NCBI RefSeq assembly: GCF_028553805.1
Contig: NZ_CP067140.1
Span: 1,922,001-1,986,000, forward strand
DNA length: 64,000 nucleotides
DNA from: Paracoccus saliphilus
GTDB lineage: Bacteria; Pseudomonadota; Alphaproteobacteria; Rhodobacterales; Rhodobacteraceae
Reading direction: 5' to 3'
Shown here in pieces: positions 19,164 through 60,931 of the stretch (positions are counted from its first letter, which is position 1; the number at the start of each line of letters is the position of its first letter). A program made the position numbers and the translations under genes. A model generated the notes under the pieces. It made no database searches and had not been told where the DNA came from. It saw only the letters and a program-made list of their open reading frames with translations.

Positions 19164-19312
19164 CGCAACCTGCGCAGGCTGTGTACGCCCTGTGTACAGG
19201 CTGTGCACATCCGGTGTACGCGCTGTGCGGCCCGAAACCCGGCATTTTCCGTGTCAGGCCGCTTCCGCGTTGCGCGATGTCACCGATGCAACGCACGGCC
19301 CCGTTGCACGCG
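19164..19312 (+). repeat. Composite iteron repeat, copy 1
   Basis: Five GTGTAC/GTGCAC-like cores start at 19181, 19192, 19203, 19214 and 19225, exactly 11 bp apart (the last is GTGCGG). A GCATTT half-hairpin begins 17 bp after the last core, at 19242. GTTGC (19269), GCAAC (19288) and GTTGC (19303) follow with 14- and 10-bp spacers. The element ends 8 bp before the stop of the minus-strand MFS gene. Three more copies lie at 23982, 43241 and 58951. Family not recognised. Confidence 0.85.
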
Positions 19313-19319
19313 CCGGCCC

Positions 19320-20504
19320 TCAAGCCGCCGAGGCGACCTCTTCTTCGTCGTTGAATTCTGCCGTCCGTGCCAGCGGCGACAGCAGCAAGGGCACGATCAG
19401 CAGCCCGGCGAGGCCAAGATAAATGCTGGAAAAGCTCATTTTCTCGGCCAGGAACCCGATGCTTCCCGGAGCCAGCAGGATGCCGGAATAACCCATCATC
19501 GTCACCACCGCGAGCCCGACCCCCGGTGCCAGCAGGGGCAGGTTTCCGGCTGCGGAAAAGGCGATTGGCACGAGGTTGGCGATGCCCAGACCCGCGAAAC
19601 CGAATCCGATGATCGCCATTACCGGCCCCGAGGCCATACCGGCGATGCCAAGGCCCGCGATAGCCACCACAGCACTGATCCGTAACATGCTGACCGCGCC
19701 TAGTTTTTGCCGCAAGATATCGCCCAGGAAACGCATCACCGCCATGGTCGCCGCGCAGGCTGCAAAGCCCCAGCCCGCCAGCGAAAGCGACGCCCCCATC
19801 TCGCGTTGCAGATAGACCGCCGCCCAATCGAGGATGGCGCCCTCGGGCACCATGCAGCACAGCGCCATGAAACCGATGATATAGGGCAGCGGCGAGCGCG
19901 GCAGTCTCAGCGGCGCCTTGGCCTCGCGCGCATCTGGTGCGTCGCGCAGCATCCTCGGCAGCGCAAAGCCTAGCACGGCACCGAAAATCAGCGTTGCAAG
20001 CAGTGCGTGGCCCAGCTCTCCCAGGCTGGACAGCGCCATGCCCCCCAGCCCTGCTCCGACCACGCCGCCAAGACTCCAAAACCCGTGGCAAGAGGACATG
20101 ATCGCCCGGCGGCGCGCACGCTCGACCGCGACTGCATTGGCATTCATCGCCACATCCATGCCGCCCAGGAAACCGCCGAAAAGCAGGACCGTAGCCGCCA
20201 CCAGCAGCAGGTTTGGAGCCAGTGACATCAGCAACAGAATCGGTAGCGCCAGAAGCGCCGAGATCCGCACGGCCCGCGCCGATCCATGCCGCGCCGTCAT
20301 CGCACCGAAAACCGGCATCACCAGCAGCGACCCAAGCCCCAGCATCAGCACCACCATTCCCGCGGTGCCCTCGCTGATCCCAAGCCGTGCCATCAGTGCC
20401 GGCAGCTTGGGCGCCCAACTGCCGATCATCAGCCCATTGGCGAAGAACAATGCCGATACGGCCATACGGGCCGAACCGGCGGGCCGGTCATCGCGGTCGA
20501 TCAT
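19320..20504 (-). CDS. MFS transporter
   Basis: 394 residues with about twelve hydrophobic segments, so an inner-membrane transporter of the major facilitator superfamily. N-terminal ALFFANGLMIGSWAPKLPALMARLGIS is typical of the YbjJ-like branch (inner-membrane protein related to the fucose permease group). MPVFGAMTARHGSARAVRIS fits the loop 2-3 motif. The gene starts 21 bp after the stop of a 2-hydroxyacid dehydrogenase gene on the same strand, so the two are probably co-transcribed, and the substrate may be an organic acid or sugar acid. That link is inference. A composite repeat lies right at its 3' end. Confidence 0.85.
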   Translation of the reverse strand: MIDRDDRPAGSARMAVSALFFANGLMIGSWAPKLPALMARLGISEGTAGMVVLMLGLGSLLVMPVFGAMTARHGSARAVRISALLALPILLLMSLAPNLLLVAATVLLFGGFLGGMDVAMNANAVAVERARRRAIMSSCHGFWSLGGVVGAGLGGMALSSLGELGHALLATLIFGAVLGFALPRMLRDAPDAREAKAPLRLPRSPLPYIIGFMALCCMVPEGAILDWAAVYLQREMGASLSLAGWGFAACAATMAVMRFLGDILRQKLGAVSMLRISAVVAIAGLGIAGMASGPVMAIIGFGFAGLGIANLVPIAFSAAGNLPLLAPGVGLAVVTMMGYSGILLAPGSIGFLAEKMSFSSIYLGLAGLLIVPLLLSPLARTAEFNDEEEVASAA

Positions 20505-23879: not shown

Positions 23880-23912
23880 CCGCTTCTTCTTCATCCAAAT
23901 ATCCATCCCGAG
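23880..23912 (-). repeat. Truncated copy of the CATGAAGAAGAA repeat
   Basis: On the minus strand this reads GGATATTTGGATGAAGAAGAAGC preceded by GGGAT, matching the 3' half of the repeats at 42001, 55136 and 60857 but lacking their GC hairpin. It lies in the 340-bp gap 23795-24134, which otherwise holds only a composite repeat copy. Confidence 0.6.
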
Positions 23913-23981: not shown

Positions 23982-24126
23982 GCAGCGCACGCTGGCTGTG
24001 TACAGGTTGTGTACAGCCTGTGCACGCGCCGTGCACACATAGTGCAGGCAGTTTCCCAGCATTTGCTGGCTGAAATCGATCCGGTGTTGCGCGCCGTGCC
24101 GAATGCAACGCACGCTGCTGTGGCGG
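23982..24126 (+). repeat. Composite iteron repeat, copy 2
   Basis: Five cores GTGTAC, GTGTAC, GTGCAC, GTGCAC and GTGCAG start at 23998, 24009, 24020, 24031 and 24042, 11 bp apart. The hairpin CCAGCA-TT-TGCTGG follows with GCA at 24059. GTTGC is at 24086, GCAAC at 24105, and a degenerate GTGGC at 24120. The copy ends 8 bp from the stop of the minus-strand lipoprotein gene. It begins with GCAGCGCACGCTG and ends with GCAACGCACGCTG. Confidence 0.85.
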
Positions 24127-24134
24127 CCCGAGTG

Positions 24135-24485
24135 CTACACCGGACAGCGGTGGTAACGCCGCCTCTCACCGTCTTCCATCATATCCAGAAAATCGCCATC
24201 GGCGCGCAGGTTCACCCGGCGCTCGAAACTTTCGCCTTCGCCGGTGCAGATCAGCCGCGCCTGCAGGCCATCCGGCCCCGGCCCGACAGGTTCCATCCTG
24301 CAAGCGGACTCGTAAAAGCGGAAGTTGTCACCAGAAACGGTCAGCCGGGTCAAGGAAAGCTCTTCACCGCAACCATCGGGATTCAAATCATAAATCCCGC
24401 TAGAAATTTCTGCGACTGGTTCGCTTTCTTCGACACATCCGGCCAGCAGAACCACTCCCAGAACCATCATCCCACGCGTCAGCAT
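24135..24485 (-). CDS. Small hypothetical lipoprotein
   Basis: 116 residues from ATG 24485, with GGGAGGG 7 bases upstream; an earlier in-frame ATG would push the signal peptide inwards. The N-terminus MLTRGMMVLGVVLLAGCVEE is a signal peptide with lipobox LAGC, so a lipid-anchored envelope protein is expected. The mature part of about 98 residues has four Cys besides the lipid-anchor one (DGCGEE, SACRM, LICTG, RCPV), enough for two disulfides, and a beta-rich pattern. I recognise no domain. It starts 22 bp after the M3 peptidase stop on the same strand, so they may share a transcript. Confidence 0.75.
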   Translation of the reverse strand: MLTRGMMVLGVVLLAGCVEESEPVAEISSGIYDLNPDGCGEELSLTRLTVSGDNFRFYESACRMEPVGPGPDGLQARLICTGEGESFERRVNLRADGDFLDMMEDGERRRYHRCPV

Positions 24486-24507
24486 ATTCCGCCCTCCCCG
24501 AAAATCT

Positions 24508-26532
24508 CTAGACAAGGTCACGCCCTTTCAGCAACGCATCAACCCCCGGCATGCGTTCCCTGAAGGCGAGCCACAATTTCTCGGCAGGCGCAGAGCCGCC
24601 ACGCGACAGGATATTTTCCTCCAGCCGCCGCGCCACGCCCGGATCGAAAATTTCGCCCGCCTCCTCGAAGGCCGCAAATGCGTCGGCATCCATAACTTCC
24701 GACCACATGTAACTGTAATATCCGCTGGCATAACTATTGCCCGAGAAGATATGCGCGAAATGCGGAGTGGCATGGCGCATCGGGATCGCTCGCGGGGCCT
24801 CCAGCCCGGCCAGGATCTCGCGCTGTCGCGCCATCGGATCGGCGGGCGGATCGCCACGGTGGAAAGCCAGATCGACCAGCGCGCTTTCCAGGTATTCCAC
24901 CGTTGCGAAACCGGCATCCGCCTTGCCCGCGGCCACGACCCGGTCGCGCAGATCGGCGGGCATCGGCTCTCTGGTCCGGAAATGCCGCGCATGGGCATCC
25001 AGCACCTGCGGCTGTTCCAGCCAATGTTCATATAACTGGCTGGGCAGTTCGACGAAATCCTGCGCCACCGAGGTGCCGGAAATCGAGGGCCAATGCACGT
25101 CCGACAGGATTTGATGGGTCGCATGGCCGAATTCATGAAACAGCGTCAGGGCGTCATCCCATGACAGGAAGGCAGGCTCGCCCGGCGCATCCGGGGCGGT
25201 GAAATTGCACACATTCACCACGATGGGCCGCTGCCCCTCGCCGATCTTGTGCTGGTCCTGCAGCGCCGAGCACCACGCGCCAGAACGCTTGCCGGGCCGG
25301 GCAAAGTAATCGCCCAGGAAGATCGCCATCAATTTGCCGTTCCGCGTCACCCGCCATGCCTTTACATCCGGCGACCAGAGCGGCGCCTCGATTGTCTGGA
25401 ACTCCAACCGATACAAGCGATGCGCCACATCGAACACCGCGCCCAGCATCACGTCCAGCGTCAGGTAGGGCTTGACCTCGGCCGGGTCGACGTCGTGACG
25501 CATGCGTCTCAACCGCTCGGCATAGAGCCGCCAGTCCCATGGCTCCAAGGCGGTATTCACGCCATCCTCCCGCGCCAGCCTCGACAATTCCGCCTCGTCT
25601 TCCGCGACGCGTTTGCGGGCCGCCTTCCAGACCTGCCCCAGCAAGGTCTCGACCCGCCCGGCATTGCCCGCCATCTCGGGTTCCAGCTTGTAGGCGGCAA
25701 AATCCTCGTAACCCAGCAAGCCGGCCAACTCGTGCCGCAATGCCAGGATCTCGGTGACGATGGGCAGGTTGTCGGTTGCCTCGCCGCCGGCGCCCTGCCC
25801 CGACCCCCGCGCGGCCCATGCCTTGAACGCCAGTTCACGCAGCGCTCGATCCTGCGCATGTTCCAGGAATGGCACGATCAGAGAACGGTTCAGCGTCACG
25901 ATCTGCCCGGGCAGGTCGCGCTCTTTCGCAGCCGCCCGCATCGCGCGGATCAGCCAGTCGGGCAGTCCCTCCAGGCGATCATCGGCAATCGGCAGGACAT
26001 AGTCACGTTCATCGGCCAGCACATTTTGCGCGAATTGCGTGGTCAACACCGCCATGCGCGCGCGAATTTCGGCCATCCGTTCGCGTGCCGCGCCCTCCAG
26101 CCCGGCCCCGGCCCGGGTCAGGTCGCGCAATGCCAGTTCGGTGATCCGCCGATCCTCGGGCGCGAGCGTTTCCGCCTGTTTCGCCACCGTCTTGACCCGC
26201 GCATAAAGCCGCGGATCCATGCTGGTCCTGCTGTTATACGCCGCCAATTTCGGCGCAAAATCGCGCTGCAATGCCTCGCGCTCCGGGTTCGAATCCACGC
26301 CTGCCAGCGTGTAGAAGATGGCCAGCACGCGGCTCAGTCCTTCTTCGGCGGTCTCCAGCGCAGCAACCGTGTTGGCGAAACTCGCGGGCTCGGGATTGGC
26401 CGCGATCTTTTCCATAGCCGCCTCGGCACCAGTCAGTTCGGCCTCGAATGCGGGCGCGAAATCCTCGTCGGAAATCAGGTCGAAACGGGGCAGCCCCTCG
26501 GGGCCGGTCCAGCGGGTCAGTTCCGGGTTCAT
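24508..26532 (-). CDS. M3-family metallopeptidase (oligopeptidase A/Dcp type)
   Basis: 674 residues, the usual length of OpdA and Dcp enzymes, which cleave short peptides in the cytoplasm during peptide recycling. The zinc motif HEFGH is at residues 466-470 in LTLFHEFGHATHQILS, followed by SGTSVAQDFVELPSQLYEHW, which contributes the third zinc ligand. The C-terminal FAHIFSGNSYASGYYSYMWSEV is the substrate-binding tyrosine segment of the family. No signal peptide. The sequence alone does not separate oligopeptidase A from peptidyl-dipeptidase Dcp. It is followed by a small lipoprotein gene and preceded by an ArsR-type regulator gene 27 bp upstream on the same strand. Confidence 0.94.
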   Translation of the reverse strand: MNPELTRWTGPEGLPRFDLISDEDFAPAFEAELTGAEAAMEKIAANPEPASFANTVAALETAEEGLSRVLAIFYTLAGVDSNPEREALQRDFAPKLAAYNSRTSMDPRLYARVKTVAKQAETLAPEDRRITELALRDLTRAGAGLEGAARERMAEIRARMAVLTTQFAQNVLADERDYVLPIADDRLEGLPDWLIRAMRAAAKERDLPGQIVTLNRSLIVPFLEHAQDRALRELAFKAWAARGSGQGAGGEATDNLPIVTEILALRHELAGLLGYEDFAAYKLEPEMAGNAGRVETLLGQVWKAARKRVAEDEAELSRLAREDGVNTALEPWDWRLYAERLRRMRHDVDPAEVKPYLTLDVMLGAVFDVAHRLYRLEFQTIEAPLWSPDVKAWRVTRNGKLMAIFLGDYFARPGKRSGAWCSALQDQHKIGEGQRPIVVNVCNFTAPDAPGEPAFLSWDDALTLFHEFGHATHQILSDVHWPSISGTSVAQDFVELPSQLYEHWLEQPQVLDAHARHFRTREPMPADLRDRVVAAGKADAGFATVEYLESALVDLAFHRGDPPADPMARQREILAGLEAPRAIPMRHATPHFAHIFSGNSYASGYYSYMWSEVMDADAFAAFEEAGEIFDPGVARRLEENILSRGGSAPAEKLWLAFRERMPGVDALLKGRDLV

Positions 26533-42000: not shown

Positions 42001-42062
42001 CGTCCCGCGATGGCCGGGGGCTCTGCCCCCGGACCCCCGGGATATTTACATGAAGAAGAAGC
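42001..42062 (+). repeat. GC-hairpin/CATGAAGAAGAA repeat, full copy
   Basis: CGTCCCGCGATGG is followed by the hairpin CCGGGGG-CTCTG-CCCCCGG, then ACCCCCGGGATATTTACATGAAGAAGAAGC. Related copies are at 55136, 60857 (minus) and 23880 (truncated, minus). This one lies between divergent genes, 70 bp before the ThiE-like start, so it is not simply a 3'-end terminator. Confidence 0.8.
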
Positions 42063-43240: not shown

Positions 43241-43378
43241 GCAACGCACGCTGCCTGTGTACAGATTGTGCACCCCCGGTGTACGGCTTGTGCAGGCCAA
43301 AACCCCGCATTTGCCGGGTCAAACGCATTTGGATGTTGCGAATCGCCAGCCGTGCAACGCGCGCAGACGTTGCATCCG
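43241..43378 (+). repeat. Composite iteron repeat, copy 3 (one iteron fewer)
   Basis: Cores GTGTAC, GTGCAC, GTGTAC and GTGCAG start at 43257, 43268, 43279 and 43290, 11 bp apart: four units instead of five. The GCATTTGC hairpin has GCA at 43307, again 17 bp after the last core. GTTGC is at 43335, GCAAC at 43354 and GTTGC at 43369. It begins with GCAACGCACGCTG and ends 2 bp before the purN stop. Confidence 0.85.
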
Positions 43379-45189: not shown

Positions 45190-45540
45190 GCAAATGTTAT
45201 TTCCATACAATATCAATATTTTACAAAATCCTTTCCCTAGGCGGAACACCAGTGGGCACCTTATACTGCTTCGCCGTTCAATTTCAGCAATCCATCAAGA
45301 AGCAACTGCTCCATGGCGTAGGCACTTCTATCCTCCGAGCAAATCAGCCAACTTCTTCGACGCTTGGATAGTCGCATCGGTCAGTATTCATCTAACAGGT
45401 ATGTTGCTTTGGAGTCGGCCTCATTCTGACAATTCAATCCATCCAAGATTGTCTTTTGAGTTATGTCAGGATAGATAAGCGAAATTTCGCGTAGTGAGTA
45501 AATCCATCTATCCTGACATACCTATGGAGTTGCTCGTCAC
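45190..45540. other. AT-richer gene-free stretch after the tRNA
   Basis: The sequence directly after the tRNA is clearly richer in A and T than its surroundings (for example AATATCAATATTTTAC). Its short frames look random and none shows a domain. It contains the nested palindrome at 45462-45520. No integrase and no second copy of the tRNA 3' end was found within the window, so it may be the remnant of an island, but that is inference. Confidence 0.5.
45462..45520. repeat. Nested palindrome with 15-bp arms
   Basis: TATGTCAGGATAGAT (45462-45476) is repeated exactly inverted at 45506-45520. The 29-bp spacer contains a second perfect palindrome, GCGAAATTTCGC (45479-45490). It ends 20 bp before the start of a small membrane ORF. 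It could be an operator, an RNA hairpin or the ends of a tiny mobile element. Confidence 0.8.
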
Positions 45541-45855
45541 ATGCATGGTCCACCGCTCTTCGCTGTCGATTTCAAGTTCGCAATTACGCGTCTCGAACTC
45601 GAGCGGGATAAAAAACGCATGCAGAGATTGTGGACCAATATCATTGTCTTGGCTTTCATCGCGCTACTATTCTGGTTCAGCGTAGCCAACATGTCCTACG
45701 ACCACAGCATCATGATCCTGATGAATTTGGCAACATTCGGTTTCCTCATGGATCGAATAAACAGGCTGCACATCAAGTATATAGGAGATCAGCTCAATCT
45801 GCTGATCTGTATCGAACGAAAAGGCTGTGAAGCCTTGGAAATCCAGCAAGCGTAA
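45541..45855 (+). CDS. Small hypothetical membrane protein
   Basis: 104 residues. After a polar N-terminal helix (FKFAITRLELERDKKRMQRL) come two hydrophobic segments, TNIIVLAFIALLFWFSVANM and SIMILMNLATFGFLM, then a soluble C-terminus with ICIERKGCEALE. GGAG lies 11 bases before the ATG, a loose spacing; an internal ATG at 45619 is an alternative. Codon use is less GC-biased than in its neighbours, consistent with the AT-richer DNA around it. No family recognised. It might be real, because the hydrophobic pattern is ordered, but no comparative support is available here. Confidence 0.4.
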   Translation: MHGPPLFAVDFKFAITRLELERDKKRMQRLWTNIIVLAFIALLFWFSVANMSYDHSIMILMNLATFGFLMDRINRLHIKYIGDQLNLLICIERKGCEALEIQQA

Positions 45856-46302
45856 TTTCCGATTCCGTACGGATCGTGCTCCCGAAAACACTCGAATTGG
45901 TAAAACCGCGCTGAACGGACTTGAAATAGCCCGCATGAGGCGGGCTCGATGAAACGACTGAATCGGGAGTTATTGCGAAAACCTGCCCATCTCGCCTTGG
46001 AACGGCATGCTCCCTATGTTTAGTCATGAAAACCGCCAAAGTGGATATCTGGTCTTGGTGAAACTCATATCCGCTGCGGCAAGAGCCTGTCTCTCGCTTC
46101 GCTGGTCAACTTCAACACGCCATATTCGATGCATGAGCCGATTTCCGATGGTTGATCGTCCCTTTCATCAGTGATCGGGCGGCACAGGATCGTGACGCAG
46201 AAGTATTAAAATATGAGTGGAATCTCGGTCTTTGCGTTACCATTTCTATTATGAGGCCTGAATTGCCGCTGATTCTGTCCCTTAACGAATGGTGTGAAGA
46301 AA
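45856..46302. other. Gene-free stretch before prkA
   Basis: About 450 bp with no convincing gene. A 7-bp hairpin AGCCCGC-ATGAG-GCGGGCT lies at 45928-45946, without a T-run. A small minus-strand frame (45794-46039) has no domain. The prkA promoter should be in the right-hand part, but no sigma-54 or ECF motif was recognised. Confidence 0.4.
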
Positions 46303-48237
46303 ATGGAGGTTTTCAACCGTTTCTCAGAAGCTTACGACCGACTGAAGGTCGAGGAAATGTCCCTGCAGGACTATCTGCTTGGATGTCGCGAAGATCCGAG
46401 TCTGCGCGCCACAGCAGCCGAACGGATGATTTCGGCCATCGGGAAACCCGAACTTGTCGATACCAGCCAGGAACAGCGTTTGGGGCGTGTTTTCCTGAAC
46501 CGCACCATCAAGCGCTACCCGGCATTTTCCGAAATGCACGGCGTCGAGGATACGATCGAACGGATCGTCGGCTTCTTCCAGCATGCCAGCCAGGGCCTGG
46601 AAGAGCGAAAGCAGATCCTCTACCTGCTTGGCCCGGTCGGCGGCGGCAAATCCACCATGGCCGAAATCCTCAAGCGCCAGATGGAACAAGAGCCGATCTA
46701 TGTTCTCAAGGCCGGAGATCAGCTTAGCCCGCTATTCGAATCTCCGCTCGGGCTGTTTGATCCTGAACGCTTCGGCGATCTGCTGGAAGACAAGTACAAC
46801 ATCCCCAAGCCCTTGTTGAATTATCCCCTCTCCCCCTGGGGCGTGAAGCGCCTCGAGGAACTGGACGGGGATATCTCGAAATTCACCGTCGCCAAGCTGC
46901 GCCCCTCGATGCTGCGGCAGATATGCGTCGCCAAGACGGAACCCGGAGACGAGAACAACCAGGACGTTTCGGCGCTGACCGGCAAGCTGGATATCCGCCA
47001 ACTCGAACATCTGAGCCAGAACGACCCGGACGCCTATGATTATTCCGGCGGGCTGAACCGGACGACGCAGGGGCTCTTGGAGTTTGTCGAGATGTTCAAG
47101 GCGCCGATCAAGGTGCTGCATCCGCTACTGACCGCGACGCAGGACGGCAGCTACATGGGGACCGAGAATATCGGGGCATTCCCCTATCACGGCATCGTGC
47201 TGGCCCATTCCAACGAAGCCGAGTGGCAGCAATTCAAGTCGAACCGCAATAACGAGGCCTTCCTGGACCGCATCACCGTGGTAAAGGTGCCCTATTGCCT
47301 GCGCGCCACCGAAGAGGCGCAGATCTATGACAAGCTGATCGCCAGCAGCAGCCTCAAGGACGCTTCATGCGCACCCGAAACCCTGCCGATCATGGCGCGG
47401 TTCAGCGTTTTGACCCGCCTGCGCGAACACGAGAACTCGACGCTCTATTCCAAGCTTCGGGTCTATGATGGCGAGAATCTCAAGGACACCGATCCCAAGG
47501 CCAAGTCCATCCAGGAATACCGTGACAAGGCCGGTGTGGATGAGGGCATGACCGGAATCTCGACCCGTTTCGCCTTCAAGGTGCTGTCAGAGACGTTCAA
47601 TCACGACAATACCGAGATCGCGGCGGATCCGGTTCATTTGATGTATGTGCTTGAACAGACCATCCTGCGCGAGCAGTTCCCGGAGGAAACCCAGGGCCGC
47701 TATCTCGAATTCATCAAGACAGAGCTGACTTCACGCTATGCCGAGTTCATCGGCGAGGAGATCCAGAAGGCCTATCTCGAATCCTATTCGGATTACGGTC
47801 AGAACCTGTTCGACCGCTATATCGCCTATGCCGATGCCTGGATCGAGGATCAGGACTACAAGGATCCCGATACCGGCCAGATGTATGATCGCGAAGTGCT
47901 GGAGCAGGAGCTTGAGAAGATCGAGAAACCGGCGGGCATCGCCAATCCCAAGGATTTCCGCAACGAGGTAGTCAAGTTCGTGCTGCGCGCCCGGGCCGAG
48001 AACGAGGGCAAGAATCCCGACTGGCACAAATATGCCAAGCTTCGCCGGGTGATCGAGAAGCGCATGTTCTCGAATGTCGAGGACCTGCTGCCGGTCATCA
48101 GCTTCGGGGCCAAGCGTGACCGGGAGACCGATGCCAAGCACGCGGAATTCGTCGAGCGCATGACCGATCGCGGCTATACCCAAAGCCAGGTCCGGCGGCT
48201 GGTCGAATGGTACATGCGGGTCCGGAAAGCCGGATAG
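46303..48237 (+). CDS. prkA: PrkA-type serine protein kinase/AAA protein
   Basis: 644 residues from ATG 46303, the length of E. coli YeaG; a GTG three codons earlier lacks a ribosome site. A stress- and starvation-linked protein with an AAA domain and an associated kinase-like domain. MEVFNRFSEAYDR and MSLQDYLLGCREDP form the N-terminus, the Walker A is GPVGGGKST near residue 110, and NYPLSPWGVKRLEEL and GLLEFVEMFKAPIKVLHPLLTATQDGSY are family blocks. First gene of a prkA-yeaH-spoVR cluster, followed after 11 bp by the DUF444 gene. The three genes form a conserved operon in many proteobacteria. Confidence 0.96.
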   Translation: MEVFNRFSEAYDRLKVEEMSLQDYLLGCREDPSLRATAAERMISAIGKPELVDTSQEQRLGRVFLNRTIKRYPAFSEMHGVEDTIERIVGFFQHASQGLEERKQILYLLGPVGGGKSTMAEILKRQMEQEPIYVLKAGDQLSPLFESPLGLFDPERFGDLLEDKYNIPKPLLNYPLSPWGVKRLEELDGDISKFTVAKLRPSMLRQICVAKTEPGDENNQDVSALTGKLDIRQLEHLSQNDPDAYDYSGGLNRTTQGLLEFVEMFKAPIKVLHPLLTATQDGSYMGTENIGAFPYHGIVLAHSNEAEWQQFKSNRNNEAFLDRITVVKVPYCLRATEEAQIYDKLIASSSLKDASCAPETLPIMARFSVLTRLREHENSTLYSKLRVYDGENLKDTDPKAKSIQEYRDKAGVDEGMTGISTRFAFKVLSETFNHDNTEIAADPVHLMYVLEQTILREQFPEETQGRYLEFIKTELTSRYAEFIGEEIQKAYLESYSDYGQNLFDRYIAYADAWIEDQDYKDPDTGQMYDREVLEQELEKIEKPAGIANPKDFRNEVVKFVLRARAENEGKNPDWHKYAKLRRVIEKRMFSNVEDLLPVISFGAKRDRETDAKHAEFVERMTDRGYTQSQVRRLVEWYMRVRKAG

Positions 48238-48248
48238 GCGGCGCGGGC

Positions 48249-49565
48249 ATGGCACAGTTCATAGACAGGCGGCTCAACCCCAAGGACCGCAGCCTCGCCA
48301 ACAGGCGGCGCTTTATCCGGCGTGTCCGCGGGGCGGTCAAGAAGGCGGTCGATGCCTCGGTGCAGAAGCGCGGCATCGCCGATGTCGATCGCGGCGAAAA
48401 TGTCACCGTCCCCGGCAGCGACATCCAGGAGCCGAGCTTTCACATCGCACGCGAAGGCGGATTTCGCGAACATGTGCTGCCTGGCAACAGGGCCTACCGG
48501 AAGGGCGACCGCATCGACAAGCCACCGGGCGGTGCGGGCGCGGGCCGCGACGGCGCGCCCGAAGGCGATGGCGAGGACAATTTCCTGTTCGTCCTGTCGC
48601 GCGACGAGTTCCTCGATCTCTTCTTCGAGGATCTGGAACTCCCGGACCTGATCAAGCGCAACATGAAAAGAAGCGAGGCAACGAAGCCACGGCGCTCGGG
48701 GCTGTCAGTCAGCGGGGCGCCCGCCAATCTCAGTGTCCAGCGAACCATGCGCAACTCCATCGGCCGCCGGATAGCCCTGAGACGCCCGAAGAATGAACAT
48801 GTGGACGAGTTGCGGGAAGAGATGCGCGACCTGGAAATGCGGCTCGATCCCGATGACAAGACGGGCTGGGCAAGGCTGGAACGGCTGCGGGCGCGGATCG
48901 ACGCACTTGTGCACCGGCAGAAACGCATCCCCTTCCTCGACCCGCTGGATGTCCGCTATCGCTTTTACGAGAAACAGCCGGAACCAACGGCGAACGCGGT
49001 CATGTTCTGCCTGATGGATGTATCCGCCTCGATGGGCGAGCGCGAGAAGGATCTCGCCAAGCGGTTCTTCACGCTTCTGCACCTGTTCCTGAAACGCCGC
49101 TACGACAAGGTCGATCTGGTCTTCATCCGCCACACGCATCAGGCGCATGAGGTCGACGAAGAGACCTTTTTTCATTCCCGCGAAAGCGGTGGCACCGTGG
49201 TCAGTACCGCCCTGACCGAGATGAAGCGGATCATCCGGGAGCGGTATGCGCCGTCAGACTGGAACATCTATGCCGCGCAGGCATCGGATGGCGAGAACTA
49301 TTCCGGCGACTCGGCCAAATGCATCGAGATCCTGAATAGCGGCTTGATGAAGCTTTGCCAGTATTTCGCCTATGTCGAGATCATCGGCAAGGACGAGGCG
49401 CTGATCCTGACCAATAACGACAACGGCACCGAACTCTGGCGCTCCTATCTGGAGGTCGCGGCGAGCTGGCCGAACTTCGCGCTGAAACGGGTCGCCAAAC
49501 GATCGGATATTTACCCGGTGTTCCGGGAACTCTTCTCGACCGCGACGGAGACATCGGATGGCTGA
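48249..49565 (+). CDS. yeaH: YeaH/YhbH (DUF444) family protein with vWA domain
   Basis: 438 residues. The N-terminal MAQFIDRRLNPKDRSLANRR and FIRRVRGAVKKAV blocks are the family hallmark, followed by a Gly-rich linker with EDNFLFVLSRDEFLDLFFEDLELPDL. The C-terminal third is a von Willebrand A-like domain with the MIDAS start DVSASMG near residue 262, GGTVVSTAL and ASDGENY. Thought to work with PrkA in stress survival; the mechanism is not settled. It starts 11 bp after prkA and overlaps the SpoVR gene by 8 bp. Confidence 0.95.
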   Translation: MAQFIDRRLNPKDRSLANRRRFIRRVRGAVKKAVDASVQKRGIADVDRGENVTVPGSDIQEPSFHIAREGGFREHVLPGNRAYRKGDRIDKPPGGAGAGRDGAPEGDGEDNFLFVLSRDEFLDLFFEDLELPDLIKRNMKRSEATKPRRSGLSVSGAPANLSVQRTMRNSIGRRIALRRPKNEHVDELREEMRDLEMRLDPDDKTGWARLERLRARIDALVHRQKRIPFLDPLDVRYRFYEKQPEPTANAVMFCLMDVSASMGEREKDLAKRFFTLLHLFLKRRYDKVDLVFIRHTHQAHEVDEETFFHSRESGGTVVSTALTEMKRIIRERYAPSDWNIYAAQASDGENYSGDSAKCIEILNSGLMKLCQYFAYVEIIGKDEALILTNNDNGTELWRSYLEVAASWPNFALKRVAKRSDIYPVFRELFSTATETSDG

Positions 49566-51063
49566 GGCGGCAAAAAGCGGTGACCTGCTGTTCGACGGCA
49601 GCGATTGGGATTTCGACACGCTATGGCGAACCTATGACGTGATCGAGGGCATCGCGCGGGATGACCTCGGCCTCGACCTCTATCCCAACCAGATCGAGAT
49701 CATCTCTTCCGAGCAGATGCTTGACGCCTATTCCTCGGTCGGCATGCCGCTGATGTATCACCACTGGTCCTTCGGCAAGCAGTTCATCTTTCACGAGCGC
49801 CAGTATCGCAAGGGCATGCGGGGGCTCGCCTACGAGATCGTCATCAATTCCAGCCCCTGCGTCAGCTATTGCATGGAGGACAACACCATGCCCCTGCAAG
49901 CGCTGGTGATCGCCCATGCGGCCTGCGGGCATAACCATTTCTTCAAGAACAACCACCTGTTCCGGCAATGGACCGATGCCGAGGGCATCCTCGATTACCT
50001 CGACTATGCCCGCGACTTTATCCAGAACTGCGAGGAACGGCATGGGCCAGCCGAAGTCGAGCAATTGCTCGATGCCGCCCATGCGCTCATGCCTGCGAGC
50101 GTGTTTCGCCACCGGCGCCCTCCCACACCGTCGATGCGTGCCGAGAAAGAGCGTGAACGCAAGCGCAGCGAGGAAGCGGAGCGCGCCGTCTATTACCTCT
50201 GGTCAACGCTGGATCGGGGCGACAAGTCGAAGAACAAGACGGAGGAGGTGGAAGAATACAAGTCGAAGATGCACCTGCCCGAAGAGAACATCCTGTATTT
50301 CATCGAATGCTACAGTCCGGCGCTGAAGCCGTGGGAACGGGAAATCCTGCGCATCGTCCGCAATATAGGCCAGTATTTCTATCCTCAGCAGCAGACCAAG
50401 ATCATGAACGAGGGCTGCGCCTGTTTCGTTCACTACCATATCCTCAACAAGCTGCATGAGACGGGCCGCATCACCGATGGCGCGATGCTGGAGATCCTGC
50501 ACAATCATACGAATGTATTAACCCAACCGGTCTTTGACGATCCGCGCTATGGCGGCCTCAACCCATATGCGATCGGCTTCGCGATGATGCGCGACATTCA
50601 GAGGATCTGCCTGGAACCGACCGAGGAGGATCACCGCTGGTTTCCCGACATTGCCGGCTCCCGCGACTGGAGGAATGTGCTCAAGCAGGCGTGGGAGGGT
50701 TACCGCGACGAAAGCTTCGTCCAGCAATTCCTTAGCCCCAAGGTCATCCGCGATTTCCGCATGTTCGCGCTGACCGACGATGCCAGGAACAACTGGTACA
50801 CGGTTTCAGGCATTCACGACGAGTCCGGCTATCAGACCGTCCGGGACACCTTGGAACGGATCGGCGATCTGTCCCTGTCACAACCGATCATACAGGTCGT
50901 CGATGTCGATCTTCTCGGGGACCGGGTGCTGCATCTCCAACATCGCAAGGTCGCAGACATGCCGCTTGATGACGATGATGCCAAGGCCACCTTGGAGCAT
51001 TGCAAGCGCCTGTGGGGCTATGAGGTGAAGCTGACCGAGACCTCGGTGTCTTCCTCCGAATAG
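49558..51063 (+). CDS. SpoVR-family protein
   Basis: 501 residues, like E. coli YcgB. The N-terminal block ARDDLGLDLYPNQIEIISSEQMLDAY, then YHHWSFGKQFIFHERQYRKGMRGLAYEIVINSSPC, GHNHFFKNNHLFRQW and ILRNIGQYFYPQQQTKIMNEGCACFVHYHI-like segments are all conserved in SpoVR. In spore formers it is involved in cortex formation; in non-sporing proteobacteria it joins PrkA and YeaH, with an unknown role. The repeated His and Glu residues hint at a metal site. It overlaps the upstream gene by 8 bp and closes the operon. Confidence 0.95.
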   Translation: MAEAAKSGDLLFDGSDWDFDTLWRTYDVIEGIARDDLGLDLYPNQIEIISSEQMLDAYSSVGMPLMYHHWSFGKQFIFHERQYRKGMRGLAYEIVINSSPCVSYCMEDNTMPLQALVIAHAACGHNHFFKNNHLFRQWTDAEGILDYLDYARDFIQNCEERHGPAEVEQLLDAAHALMPASVFRHRRPPTPSMRAEKERERKRSEEAERAVYYLWSTLDRGDKSKNKTEEVEEYKSKMHLPEENILYFIECYSPALKPWEREILRIVRNIGQYFYPQQQTKIMNEGCACFVHYHILNKLHETGRITDGAMLEILHNHTNVLTQPVFDDPRYGGLNPYAIGFAMMRDIQRICLEPTEEDHRWFPDIAGSRDWRNVLKQAWEGYRDESFVQQFLSPKVIRDFRMFALTDDARNNWYTVSGIHDESGYQTVRDTLERIGDLSLSQPIIQVVDVDLLGDRVLHLQHRKVADMPLDDDDAKATLEHCKRLWGYEVKLTETSVSSSE

Positions 51064-51133
51064 AATCAGCAGGCGGATACTCCACCTGACGCCCAAGCGG
51101 GCATTTCCTTCGAAACCGTTTCATCGATGAATT

Positions 51134-55135: not shown

Positions 55136-55215
55136 GCGTCCCGCGATGGCCGGGGGTTTCACACCCCCGGCCCCCCGTGGGATATTTTCATGAAGAAGAA
55201 TTTCATGAAGAAGAA
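55136..55215 (+). repeat. GC-hairpin/CATGAAGAAGAA repeat with tandem duplication
   Basis: GCGTCCCGCGATGG, a GGGGG/CCCCC hairpin, CCCCGTGGGATATTT, then TTCATGAAGAAGAA twice in tandem (55187-55200 and 55201-55214). It lies 30 bp past the gnd stop and can act as its terminator or 3' end. Confidence 0.8.
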
Positions 55216-58260: not shown

Positions 58261-58935
58261 ATGATTGACGATTTCAAGCCGCGCGAAGGACTCGATTCAG
58301 CCGAAATGGGGGTGATCGCCCATCTCTATCGGGGCGAGATCTATCGCTCGACCTTGTGGCGAACGCGGCTGGACACCACGACCAACTGGTCGGTGGTGAC
58401 CTTGGGCGTCGCCCTGTCGATTGCCTATTCCTCGCCGCAGGCCTCGCCCCTGCCCCTGGTACTGGTCGGCATCCTGATCGTGTTCTTCCTGATGCTCGAG
58501 GCGCGGCGCTATCGCTATTTCAATGTCTGGCGGGCGCGCTGCCGCTGGATCGAGCTGCATTTCATGGTCCCGATGCTGACCGAGGGCGATCTGCACATGG
58601 AAGAGCGCTGGCAGGACCGGTTGGCCGAGGATTACCGCCGCCCCGCCTATCATGTCAGCATGTGGACAGCGATCGGGCGGCGCATCCGGCGCAATTATTT
58701 CTGGATCCTGCTGATCCAGACCATAGCCTATATCGGCAAGCTGGTGGTTCACCCCGAACCGCTGCAATCAACGGCAGAGCTGCTGTCGCGTGCCACGATC
58801 GGCCCCATTCCCGGCGTGCTGGTGCTGAGCTTTGGCGCAGTCTACTGCACAAGCTGGGGACTTATCGCCTTGTGGAGCGCACGAAGCGATGCCGAACGCG
58901 CCAGGCAACGCAGCGACCCGCTCGGCATGGGCTGA
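58261..58935 (+). CDS. DUF2270 membrane protein
   Basis: 224 residues with four hydrophobic segments. ALSIAYSSPQASPLPLVLVGI and IVFFLMLEARRYRYFNVWRARCRWIELHFMVPML form the conserved core, with the EARRYRYF motif typical of DUF2270; a second pair, NYFWILLIQTIAYIGKLVVHP and GVLVLSFGAVYCTSWGLIALWS, closes the protein. No enzymatic motif. GGGAGAG before the ATG. The gene stops 15 bp before composite repeat copy 4 and is followed by ccdA. Function unknown. Confidence 0.9.
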   Translation: MIDDFKPREGLDSAEMGVIAHLYRGEIYRSTLWRTRLDTTTNWSVVTLGVALSIAYSSPQASPLPLVLVGILIVFFLMLEARRYRYFNVWRARCRWIELHFMVPMLTEGDLHMEERWQDRLAEDYRRPAYHVSMWTAIGRRIRRNYFWILLIQTIAYIGKLVVHPEPLQSTAELLSRATIGPIPGVLVLSFGAVYCTSWGLIALWSARSDAERARQRSDPLGMG

Positions 58936-58950
58936 GGCTTTCGGAAAACC

Positions 58951-59100
58951 GCGCAACGCAGGCTGCCTGTGTACGTCCTGTGTACAGGCTGTGTACGCCC
59001 GGTGCACGGGTTGTGCGGCCGGAATCCCAGCATTTGCTGGGTAAATCGCATCCGTGTTGCGCATGGTGACAAATGCAACGCACGCTGATGTTGCATCCGG
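58951..59100 (+). repeat. Composite iteron repeat, copy 4 (best formed)
   Basis: Cores GTGTAC, GTGTAC, GTGTAC, GTGCAC and GTGCGG start at 58969, 58980, 58991, 59002 and 59013, 11 bp apart. The perfect hairpin CCCAGCA-TT-TGCTGGG follows, with GCA at 59030, 17 bp after the last core. GTTGC is at 59056, GCAAC at 59075 and GTTGC at 59090. It begins 15 bp after the DUF2270 stop. GCGCAACGCA and GCAACGCACGCTG flank it. Confidence 0.9.
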
Positions 59101-59190: not shown

Positions 59191-59928
59191 ATGCTGGAGA
59201 TCGGCTATTGGGGCGCGGCACTGGCGGGCATCCTGTCCTTCCTGTCGCCCTGTATCCTGCCCATGGTCCCGTTCTACCTGTCCTACATGGCCGGGATCTC
59301 GATGTCCGAGCTGCGCGGCGACGGCAAGATCGCCGCCGGAGCCACAATGCGACTGGTCGTCTCGTCAATCGCATTCGCGCTTGGCGTCACCACGATCTTC
59401 GTGCTTCTGGGATTGGGTGCTACCGCGCTTGGGCAGTTATTCGCACAATGGAGACAACCACTTAGCTATGTTTCCGCCGCGATACTTGCCGTGTTCGGCC
59501 TGCATTTCCTCGGCGTCATCCGCATCCCTTTCCTCTATCGCGAGGCAAGGCTCGAAGGCCCGGCCAAGCCCGCCGGCATCGCCGGAGCCTATGTCATGGG
59601 CCTCGCCTTCGGCTTCGGCTGGACCCCCTGCGTCGGCCCGGCCCTGACCGCGATCCTGCTGGTCGCCTCGGGCAGCGGCGATCTGTGGCGCGGCGGCACG
59701 CTGCTGCTGGTCTTCGGTCTCGGCATGACGCTGCCCTTCGTTCTGGCGGCAGGTTTCGCCAAGCCCTTCCTCGCATGGGCGAACCGAAACCGTAAATACC
59801 TGGGATATATCGAGAAACTGATGGGGGTCATGCTGATCCTCTTCGCGATCCTGATCGCGACGAATACGGTAAACCTGATCGCCGCCTGGATGATCAGGCA
59901 TTTCGACTGGTCCGCGACACTCATCTGA
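59191..59928 (+). CDS. ccdA: CcdA-type thiol transporter
   Basis: Six-helix inner-membrane protein that carries electrons from cytoplasmic thioredoxin to periplasmic thiol proteins. 245 residues. The two redox Cys lie in TM1 SFLSPCILPMVPFY and TM4 FGFGWTPCVGPAL, the CcdA/DsbD-beta signature. YMAGISMSEL and LYREARL are loops between the repeats. It precedes a periplasmic thioredoxin-like gene by 11 bp, so the pair is likely an operon delivering electrons to one partner, as SoxV does to SoxW. Confidence 0.95.
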   Translation: MLEIGYWGAALAGILSFLSPCILPMVPFYLSYMAGISMSELRGDGKIAAGATMRLVVSSIAFALGVTTIFVLLGLGATALGQLFAQWRQPLSYVSAAILAVFGLHFLGVIRIPFLYREARLEGPAKPAGIAGAYVMGLAFGFGWTPCVGPALTAILLVASGSGDLWRGGTLLLVFGLGMTLPFVLAAGFAKPFLAWANRNRKYLGYIEKLMGVMLILFAILIATNTVNLIAAWMIRHFDWSATLI

Positions 59929-60856: not shown

Positions 60857-60931
60857 CCCTTCTTCTTCATGGAAATATCCCGGGGGAGTCCAGCCCGGAC
60901 GGGCTGGGCGGGGGCAGAGCCCCCTTCCCTT
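60857..60931 (-). repeat. GC-hairpin/CATGAAGAAGAA repeat before the YigZ gene
   Basis: On the minus strand, GGGGGCTCTGCCCCC and a CAGCCCGTCCGGGCTG hairpin are followed by CCCCCGGGATATTTCCATGAAGAAGAAGGG. It fills the gap from the hydrolase stop (60930) to 3 bp before the YigZ ATG, ending in that gene's ribosome site. Same family as 42001, 55136 and 23880. Confidence 0.8.

Follow-up and report, generated by a model that had tools for sequence, protein, structure and literature searches.

A composite repeat is found at positions 58,951 to 59,100 of the 64,000-nucleotide stretch of Paracoccus saliphilus DNA analysed here (the window), and three further copies are located elsewhere in the window, raising the question of what kind of element this is and whether it serves the cell. 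A preliminary description had assigned a single architecture to the four copies, consisting of cores phased at 11 bp, a hairpin and an array of GTTGC and GCAAC words, and had read it as either a protein-DNA array or a structured RNA.

Architecture and copy number of the element

The element is approximately 140 bases in length and comprises, in order, the palindrome GCARCGYRCGYTGC, three to five GTGYAC cores placed exactly 11 bp apart, a CCAG-CATTTG-CTGG hairpin and a terminal GTTGC/GCAAC/GTTGC array. All four copies described for the window are present, with their cores always 11 bp apart (Table 1), and 13 matches to adjacent-core pairs (<=1 mismatch) occur in the window against 0.09 expected, a count which takes in overlapping matches and one palindromic reverse match; none of 100 shuffles yielded more than one. 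The 14-bp palindrome GCARCGYRCGYTGC, which opens the element and recurs near its end, had been overlooked in the preliminary description. Copy 4 is the top-scoring copy in the genome and itself belongs to the set from which the search model was built.

Table 1. Coordinates of the repeat copies, their parts and neighbouring features in the 64-kb window
Feature	Position	Strand	Details
Element copy 1	19165-19307	+	Cores at 19181, 19192, 19203, 19214, 19225; stops 12 bp short of the MFS gene, on the side of the gene's stop codon
MFS gene	19320-20504	-	Beside copy 1
Sigma-70-region gene	to 23794	+	On one side of copy 2
Element copy 2	23982-24124	+	Cores at 23998, 24009, 24020, 24031, 24042
ORF	24135-24521	-	On the other side of copy 2; no Pfam match; stop-codon end 10 bp from element
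Element copy 3	43241-43373	+	Cores at 43257, 43268, 43279, 43290; amid convergent GFA (+) and formyltransferase (-) genes, the latter's stop-codon end 7 bp away
DUF2270 gene	58261-58935	+	Upstream of copy 4; stop to element 17 bp
Element copy 4	58953-59094	+	Cores at 58969, 58980, 58991, 59002, 59013
Copy 4, opening motif GCAACGCAGGCTGC	58953-58966	+	Palindrome GCARCGYRCGYTGC with 1 mismatch
Copy 4, core array	58969-59018	+	GTGTAC x3, GTGCAC, GTGCGG; exact 11-bp pitch
Copy 4, hairpin CCAGCATTTGCTGG	59027-59040		GCATTT starts 17 bp past the last core
Copy 4, 3' part	59056-59094	+	GTTGC (59056), GCAACGCACGCTGA (59075), GTTGC (59090)
DsbD_TM (CcdA-like) gene	59191-59928	+	Downstream of copy 4
GGATATTTnnATGAAGAAGA	23885-23904	-	
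GGATATTTnnATGAAGAAGA	42040-42059	+	
GGATATTTnnATGAAGAAGA	55180-55199	+	
GGATATTTnnATGAAGAAGA	60861-60880	-	

With 150 of 2957 first-look candidates scored, a covariance model built on 12 copies gave 70 matches in the genome at E <= 0.01. All of them lie on contig 1 (4,378,448 bases), and the 243-kb contig 2 has none. The preliminary description had been prepared to give up the repeat if no further copies came to light, and this did not happen. A pattern search of the same genome (<=1 mismatch) recovered 115 forward and 89 reverse occurrences, against 1 and 0 for a reversed control pattern. As 41 copies lie on the + strand of the chromosome and 29 on the - strand, the single orientation described earlier is correct locally, where all four copies are on the + strand, but not genome-wide.

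Among 308 core units admitted at <=1 mismatch from GTGYAC, G3 is present in 308, T2 in 306 and A5 in 304, with the Y4 position occupied by T in 207 and C in 101. Across the 70 copies the last core is degenerate (GTGCRG) or, in a subfamily, has GGATGTCACAGC in its place, and the 3' part following the CATTTG hairpin reads GTTGC, GCAACGC(A/G)CGCTG and GTTGC. The subfamily in which GGATGTCAC replaces the last core is represented by the copies at 208308, 844421 and 4209547 of this genome, and a similar ending, ATGTCACC, occurs in other genera (L311, L332). The start of GCATTT 17 bp past the last, degenerate core was confirmed in all four window copies and proved to be a genome-wide lock (modulo 11), observed in 64 of 70 copies; two of the six misses fall beyond the limits of the script and in fact show the normal offset. 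Similarly, the 15 bp from GCAAC to the final GTTGC (GTGGC in copy 2) hold in all four window copies and in 44 of the 58 measurable copies genome-wide. The 19 bp from GTTGC to GCAAC, also accurate for the four window copies, occur in only 24 of 62 copies and are not a rigid spacing, so that this part of the element is looser than the window suggests. The mean column identity of 12 aligned copies is only 75%, yet the cores and spacings are kept.

Further words accompany the element on its upstream side, with 29 of the 70 copies having at least one of four such words within 300 bp upstream. The four are a GC-rich hairpin region (CCGCGATGG, 18 copies), GGATATTT (21), AAGAAGAA (21) and the hairpin GTATGTTTTTC(G/A)TAC (16). 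The last of these lies approximately 100 bp from the array in, for example, L035 and L039, and has no occurrence in the 64-kb window. A second dispersed motif, GGATATTTnnATGAAGAAGA, has four window copies (<=3 mismatches) against 0.01 expected and occurs upstream of many array elements, where it adjoins the GC-rich hairpin. It is also found away from the arrays and in the opposite orientation, and this module at least is therefore independent.

Gene-end position and distribution in the Rhodobacteraceae

Genes were called with a codon-usage gene caller developed for this analysis rather than taken from curated annotation, and both neighbours were called for 68 of the 70 copies. These comprise 30 convergent, 21 and 12 tandem and 5 divergent arrangements, against 9 convergent, 30 tandem and 36 divergent among 75 unique element-free control gaps (>=100 bp) from the same loci plus the window; counted gap by gap, the 69 element-bearing gaps include 30 convergent, 33 tandem and 6 divergent ones. 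For 51 of the 68 copies the gene to the right runs on the opposite strand, its stop codon at a median of 14 bp from the approximate end of the element, and within 36 bp of the element in 41 of these 51. The copies thus avoid divergent promoters and frequently terminate some 14 bp away from a stop codon, and of the functions floated in the preliminary description a 3'-end element is the best fit to their positions. Arrays in other Paracoccus genomes and other genera are likewise near stop codons, without the orientation bias of P. saliphilus, which is not general: the right-hand neighbour is on the opposite strand at 16 of 34 sites from other Paracoccus genomes, at 12 of 20 from P. albicereus and at 15 of 28 from other genera, and 7, 3 and 3 of these sites, respectively, are divergent. 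A minority of the arrays outside P. saliphilus (2 and 4) lie within called ORFs.

Model matches are present in 38 of 101 Paracoccus genomes, including that of P. saliphilus, with counts varying from 70 to none within the genus; at most 33 candidates were scored per genome, so that high counts are floors. The full element was also found in four other genera of the family, among 294 other genomes searched at a strict, insensitive setting with 11 candidates scored each, while none of 24 genomes outside the family gave a model match. Searched for on its own as three exact cores, the array was recovered from 28 of 394 genomes of the family, P. saliphilus included, and almost every one of these represents a different genus; the reversed control pattern appeared in three of the 394, once each. 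A collection scan for four exact cores yielded 57 stretches, of which 21 are from P. albicereus, with others in P. isoporae, P. methylarcula, Yoonia, Planktomarina, Nioella, Palleronia, Octadecabacter and a Rhodobacteraceae MAG. Across 12 of the 28 array-bearing genomes (87 arrays), the core and pitch are constant and the linkers genome-specific, with a linker likeness of 0.71 within against 0.48 between genomes, a difference reached in none of 2000 permutations. Since the linkers are alike within and not between genomes, the core and pitch are constrained, with the linkers drifting or spreading jointly in each genome, and the genome-specific linkers show that the family is shaped by copying or conversion as well.

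Arrays of related appearance occur more widely. Nineteen viral stretches carry GTGYAC arrays, and these, like the matches to four GTGTAC cores outside the Rhodobacteraceae, are by eye mostly 11-bp minisatellites or unrelated repeats. An exception is the Prolixibacteraceae MAG UBA6029, which has its own dispersed repeats, with GTGTAC at an 11-bp pitch ahead of an inverted GTACAC half (L184, L188, L190, L191, L198, L211, L217, L220, L226, L232, L237 and L238) and which may be convergent with or related to the Paracoccus arrays. Short GTGTAC 11-bp minisatellites in unrelated bacteria (L199, Comamonadaceae; L221, Myxococcales; L196, Glaciecola) might in some cases be CarH-type operators. TTAAC/GTTAAC words, presumably resembling CtrA half-sites, occur near array ends in several genera (L205, L223, L224, L312, L313, L325 and L335).

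Four gene pairs with arrays are common to different genera, namely rpoA|rplQ (family genomes G154 and G454), the pair before lpd (G289 and G352), the gltD 3' end (G260 and G125) and a thiolase paired with an XRE-type regulator (G253 and G133). A number of sites are also shared within Paracoccus, beside mscL, efp, mog, metG and pheT; the genes are taken to be those named on the basis of recognition by eye from their sequences. At two shared sites parts of the element can still be made out: between the copy at 1352760 and L233 of P. albicereus the cores, hairpin and GCAAC are recognisable and the surrounding intergenic sequence no longer aligns, and the same parts, with one core changed, are recognisable between the copy at 3264194 and L183, where the flanks no longer align. 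The recurrence of the spacing and of some gene-end sites in related bacteria makes the element look functional.

The genome G018, presumably that of P. methylarcula, is 88-90% identical to P. saliphilus at the DNA level over the window. The model matches it nine times at E <= 0.1, in each case where P. saliphilus has a copy; one of the nine matches keeps a run of four exact cores, and in the other eight the runs are shorter than in P. saliphilus. None of the four window sites holds an element in this genome, only about 14 bp separating the GFA and formyltransferase genes at the site of copy 3. Because the sites of copies 3 and 4 seem by eye to keep 3' remnants, loss in P. methylarcula is favoured over gain in P. 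saliphilus, and the arrays appear to be decaying in P. methylarcula, as judged from this one species pair with the four window sites read individually. The PrkA/DUF444/SpoVR operon of the window (46303-51063) lies inside a segment (45218-51131) that has no alignment of more than 300 bp to contig C11 of G018.

Candidate binding proteins and competing explanations

The 11-bp pitch, the fixed 6-7 bp word and the free linkers suggest head-to-tail binding with one protein per turn. The protein-DNA array put forward in the preliminary description, in which each helical turn carries one core, is the best-supported reading, with G3 kept in all 308 units and the pitch kept across genera. OmpR/PhoB-type response regulators also use 11-bp arrays. 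CarH binds direct repeats of 11 bp in tandem, nnnnTnnACAn (PMC9304148) or nAnnTnnACAn (PMC8156234), class II LitR binds TGTACA pairs at a different spacing (PMC9758184), and the MerR-like BldC of Streptomyces forms a head-to-tail oligomer on a variable number of 9-bp direct repeats (PMC5859096). CarH/LitR operators share the tandem 11-bp direct repeats with the present arrays but are few and lie over promoters, as opposed to some 70 sites found mostly at gene ends. Both core G positions are fixed here, and the A which the PMC8156234 consensus has at position 2 is not kept. BldC resembles the head-to-tail protein proposed here in its oligomerisation on a variable number of direct repeats and differs in its 9-bp AATT-type repeats at promoters. 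TnnACR is in register with the array (in 278 of 308 units the core is followed by A or G), but the match to CarH operators is weak since 15% of random 11-bp repeats fit TnnACR.

The genome has 11 MerR_1 matches, of which P0001, a MerR protein whose HTH was read as CarH/LitR-like, is a candidate partner. Its HTH is closest among solved structures to 3whp, which is taken to be LitR, and 5c8d (CarH), at E ~1e-6, with 2jml, presumably CarA, also among its best solved relatives. No CarH-sized B12-binding (class I) MerR protein was found, both PF02607 matches lying in open frames of >900 aa. Of the 101 Paracoccus genomes 99 have P0001, that of P. methylarcula among them, and its DNA-binding domain is nearly invariant with or without arrays (24 of 30 loci read), so that it cannot alone explain the patchy arrays; being near-universal in the genus it does not discriminate, and it is retained as a lead only. 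The pitch, the TnnACR match and the CarH-like HTH would all suit an ordinary, if very large, regulon of P0001 or another CarH/LitR-like regulator. This is improbable, however, as the protein is universal in the genus and the arrays patchy, and the copies, as judged by called genes, are mostly at gene ends and not, like CarH operators, over promoters.

A distinctly unlikely reading is that the cores pair into a long + strand hairpin and form a structured 3' UTR RNA acting in stability, processing or termination. A 29-pair consensus leaves 95.4% of cells paired against 94.6% when shuffled, with two-sided changes in 17 against 5.0 cells, and across the 66 of 70 copies analysed for this, linkers 1 and 2 are complementary (7.61 against 6.22 shuffled, sd 0.24) and linkers 2 and 4 weakly so (6.59 against 6.18). 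On the + strand G-U outnumbers A-C in helix 1 (257 to 2), helix 3 (59 to 7), helix 4 (63 to 1) and the hairpin (14 to 9), although these counts come from an alignment fitted to the structure; an independent count over 51 copies gave 29 to 13. This excess and the covariation above shuffles could mean RNA. The covariation alignment, however, was likewise fitted to the structure, and sliding the partner by +2 columns gave double changes in 19 cells (10 pairs), no fewer than without the slide, with only 51.6% paired. Linker complementarity was rejected as proof of a hairpin since column pairs rise in parallel register too, and the swapping of linker blocks as whole units explains it equally. Fold z-scores are weak (-2.05 to +0.69 over eight folds), the arrays follow genes in either orientation, the 308 units never include GTATAC although pairing by itself would permit it, and no intrinsic terminator (GC-rich stem and T run) was found around copies 3 and 4. 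In agreement with the earlier view of the repeat as undescribed, Rfam has no family at gathering score in the window; of two copies scanned at E<=1, copy 4 has no match and the other has a single chance-level match beside it.

Genome-specific linker dialects are also what might be expected of a non-autonomous mobile repeat (MITE- or REP-like) moved by a transposase in trans, with the cores as transposase sites and gene ends as tolerated positions. The variation from 70 matches to none inside one genus fits such an element, as does the likeness of most of the 21 P. albicereus copies, which run from CTGAACCGCA to GTTGCCGTTCAG with inverted ends. The ends differ between the two species, being CTGAAC...GTTCAG in most P. 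albicereus copies and GCAAC...GTTGC in P. saliphilus. Mobility alone is nevertheless unlikely, if deserving of real weight, given the retention of cores and spacings at 75% identity, the occupation of identical gene pairs in different genera and the absence of BLAST matches to copy 4 in phage and plasmid collections. The notion of polar replication or segregation landmarks of the KOPS or matS kind could draw on the regular inner architecture, the lack of any copy on contig 2 and the largest copy-free gap, of 444 kb (G000:C1 2117985 to 2561765), near the point opposite dnaA. It is nonetheless very improbable indeed: with dnaA at position 349, strands are unbiased by replichore (+22/-14 and +19/-15), gaps are no more even than random, orientation clustering is not significant (29 runs against 35.1 expected, 0.08), and P. 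albicereus carries copies on a plasmid-labelled scaffold as well. Replication polarity and regular spacing were rejected on these random-like statistics, which also give no support to the nucleoid anchoring suggested earlier as a genome-scale pattern.

Relation to known repeats and proposed role at gene ends

REPs are palindromes of 20-40 bp (PMC3733652) with GTAG-type heads and RAYT genes, and roles in chromosome organisation and transcription termination have been proposed for REP/BIME sequences (PMC2817692). The element is similarly dispersed, extragenic, palindrome-containing, present in many copies and genome-specific in sequence. It differs from REPs in its length of about 140 bp and its 11-bp operator-like array, and REP heads within 13 bp on either side of the hairpin are rare in 67 copies (GTAG 0, GTGG 3, CGTC 2). 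The BrickBuilt MITE of Porphyromonas gingivalis (PMC4596501) has 19 copies in one strain and is likewise a dispersed intergenic element of tandem short repeats with leader and tail parts, but its 23-nt units without spacers differ from the conserved 6-bp cores, free linkers and many genera seen here. A literature search, with most subscription journals outside its scope, recovered no paper describing the repeat, and neither did a term search of PMC3281130 (Paracoccus mobilome) and PMC3733652. The repeat is apparently undescribed, falling within the broad kind of dispersed gene-end repeats.

The explanation favoured here, held tentatively and at a little short of probable, is that of a REP/BIME-like functional gene-end family, kept partly by selection, in which the core serves as operator array to a DNA-binding protein that assembles head-to-tail. 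The GTGYACR cores, one per 11 bp, would be head-to-tail sites for a sequence-specific protein lined up along one face of the duplex, with the hairpin and the GTTGC/GCAAC palindromes flanking the array; the target would thus be DNA rather than RNA. Bound at gene ends or between converging genes, the protein would act on transcription or supercoiling as a roadblock or insulator, along the lines proposed for BIMEs, and the position of the copies speaks for a role at gene ends as a read-through roadblock, in the insulation of converging genes or in supercoil management. The family would spread or homogenise within each genome, as the genome-specific linkers suggest, and some sites may be kept by selection. 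A wider view, possible if on the doubtful side, is of chromosome-wide gene-end punctuation in the Rhodobacteraceae, where short head-to-tail protein filaments on phased arrays near stop codons would insulate neighbouring or converging genes and the network would be gained or lost with the protein.

That bacteria carry dispersed repeats (REP/BIME) at the ends of genes is an old finding, and what these are used for continues to be debated. The alphaproteobacterial architecture differs, with a built-in operator-like array, genome-specific dialects, cross-genus sites and a sister species in which the arrays appear to be decaying, and with it the question of whose benefit such repeats serve, the cell's or their own, becomes directly testable.
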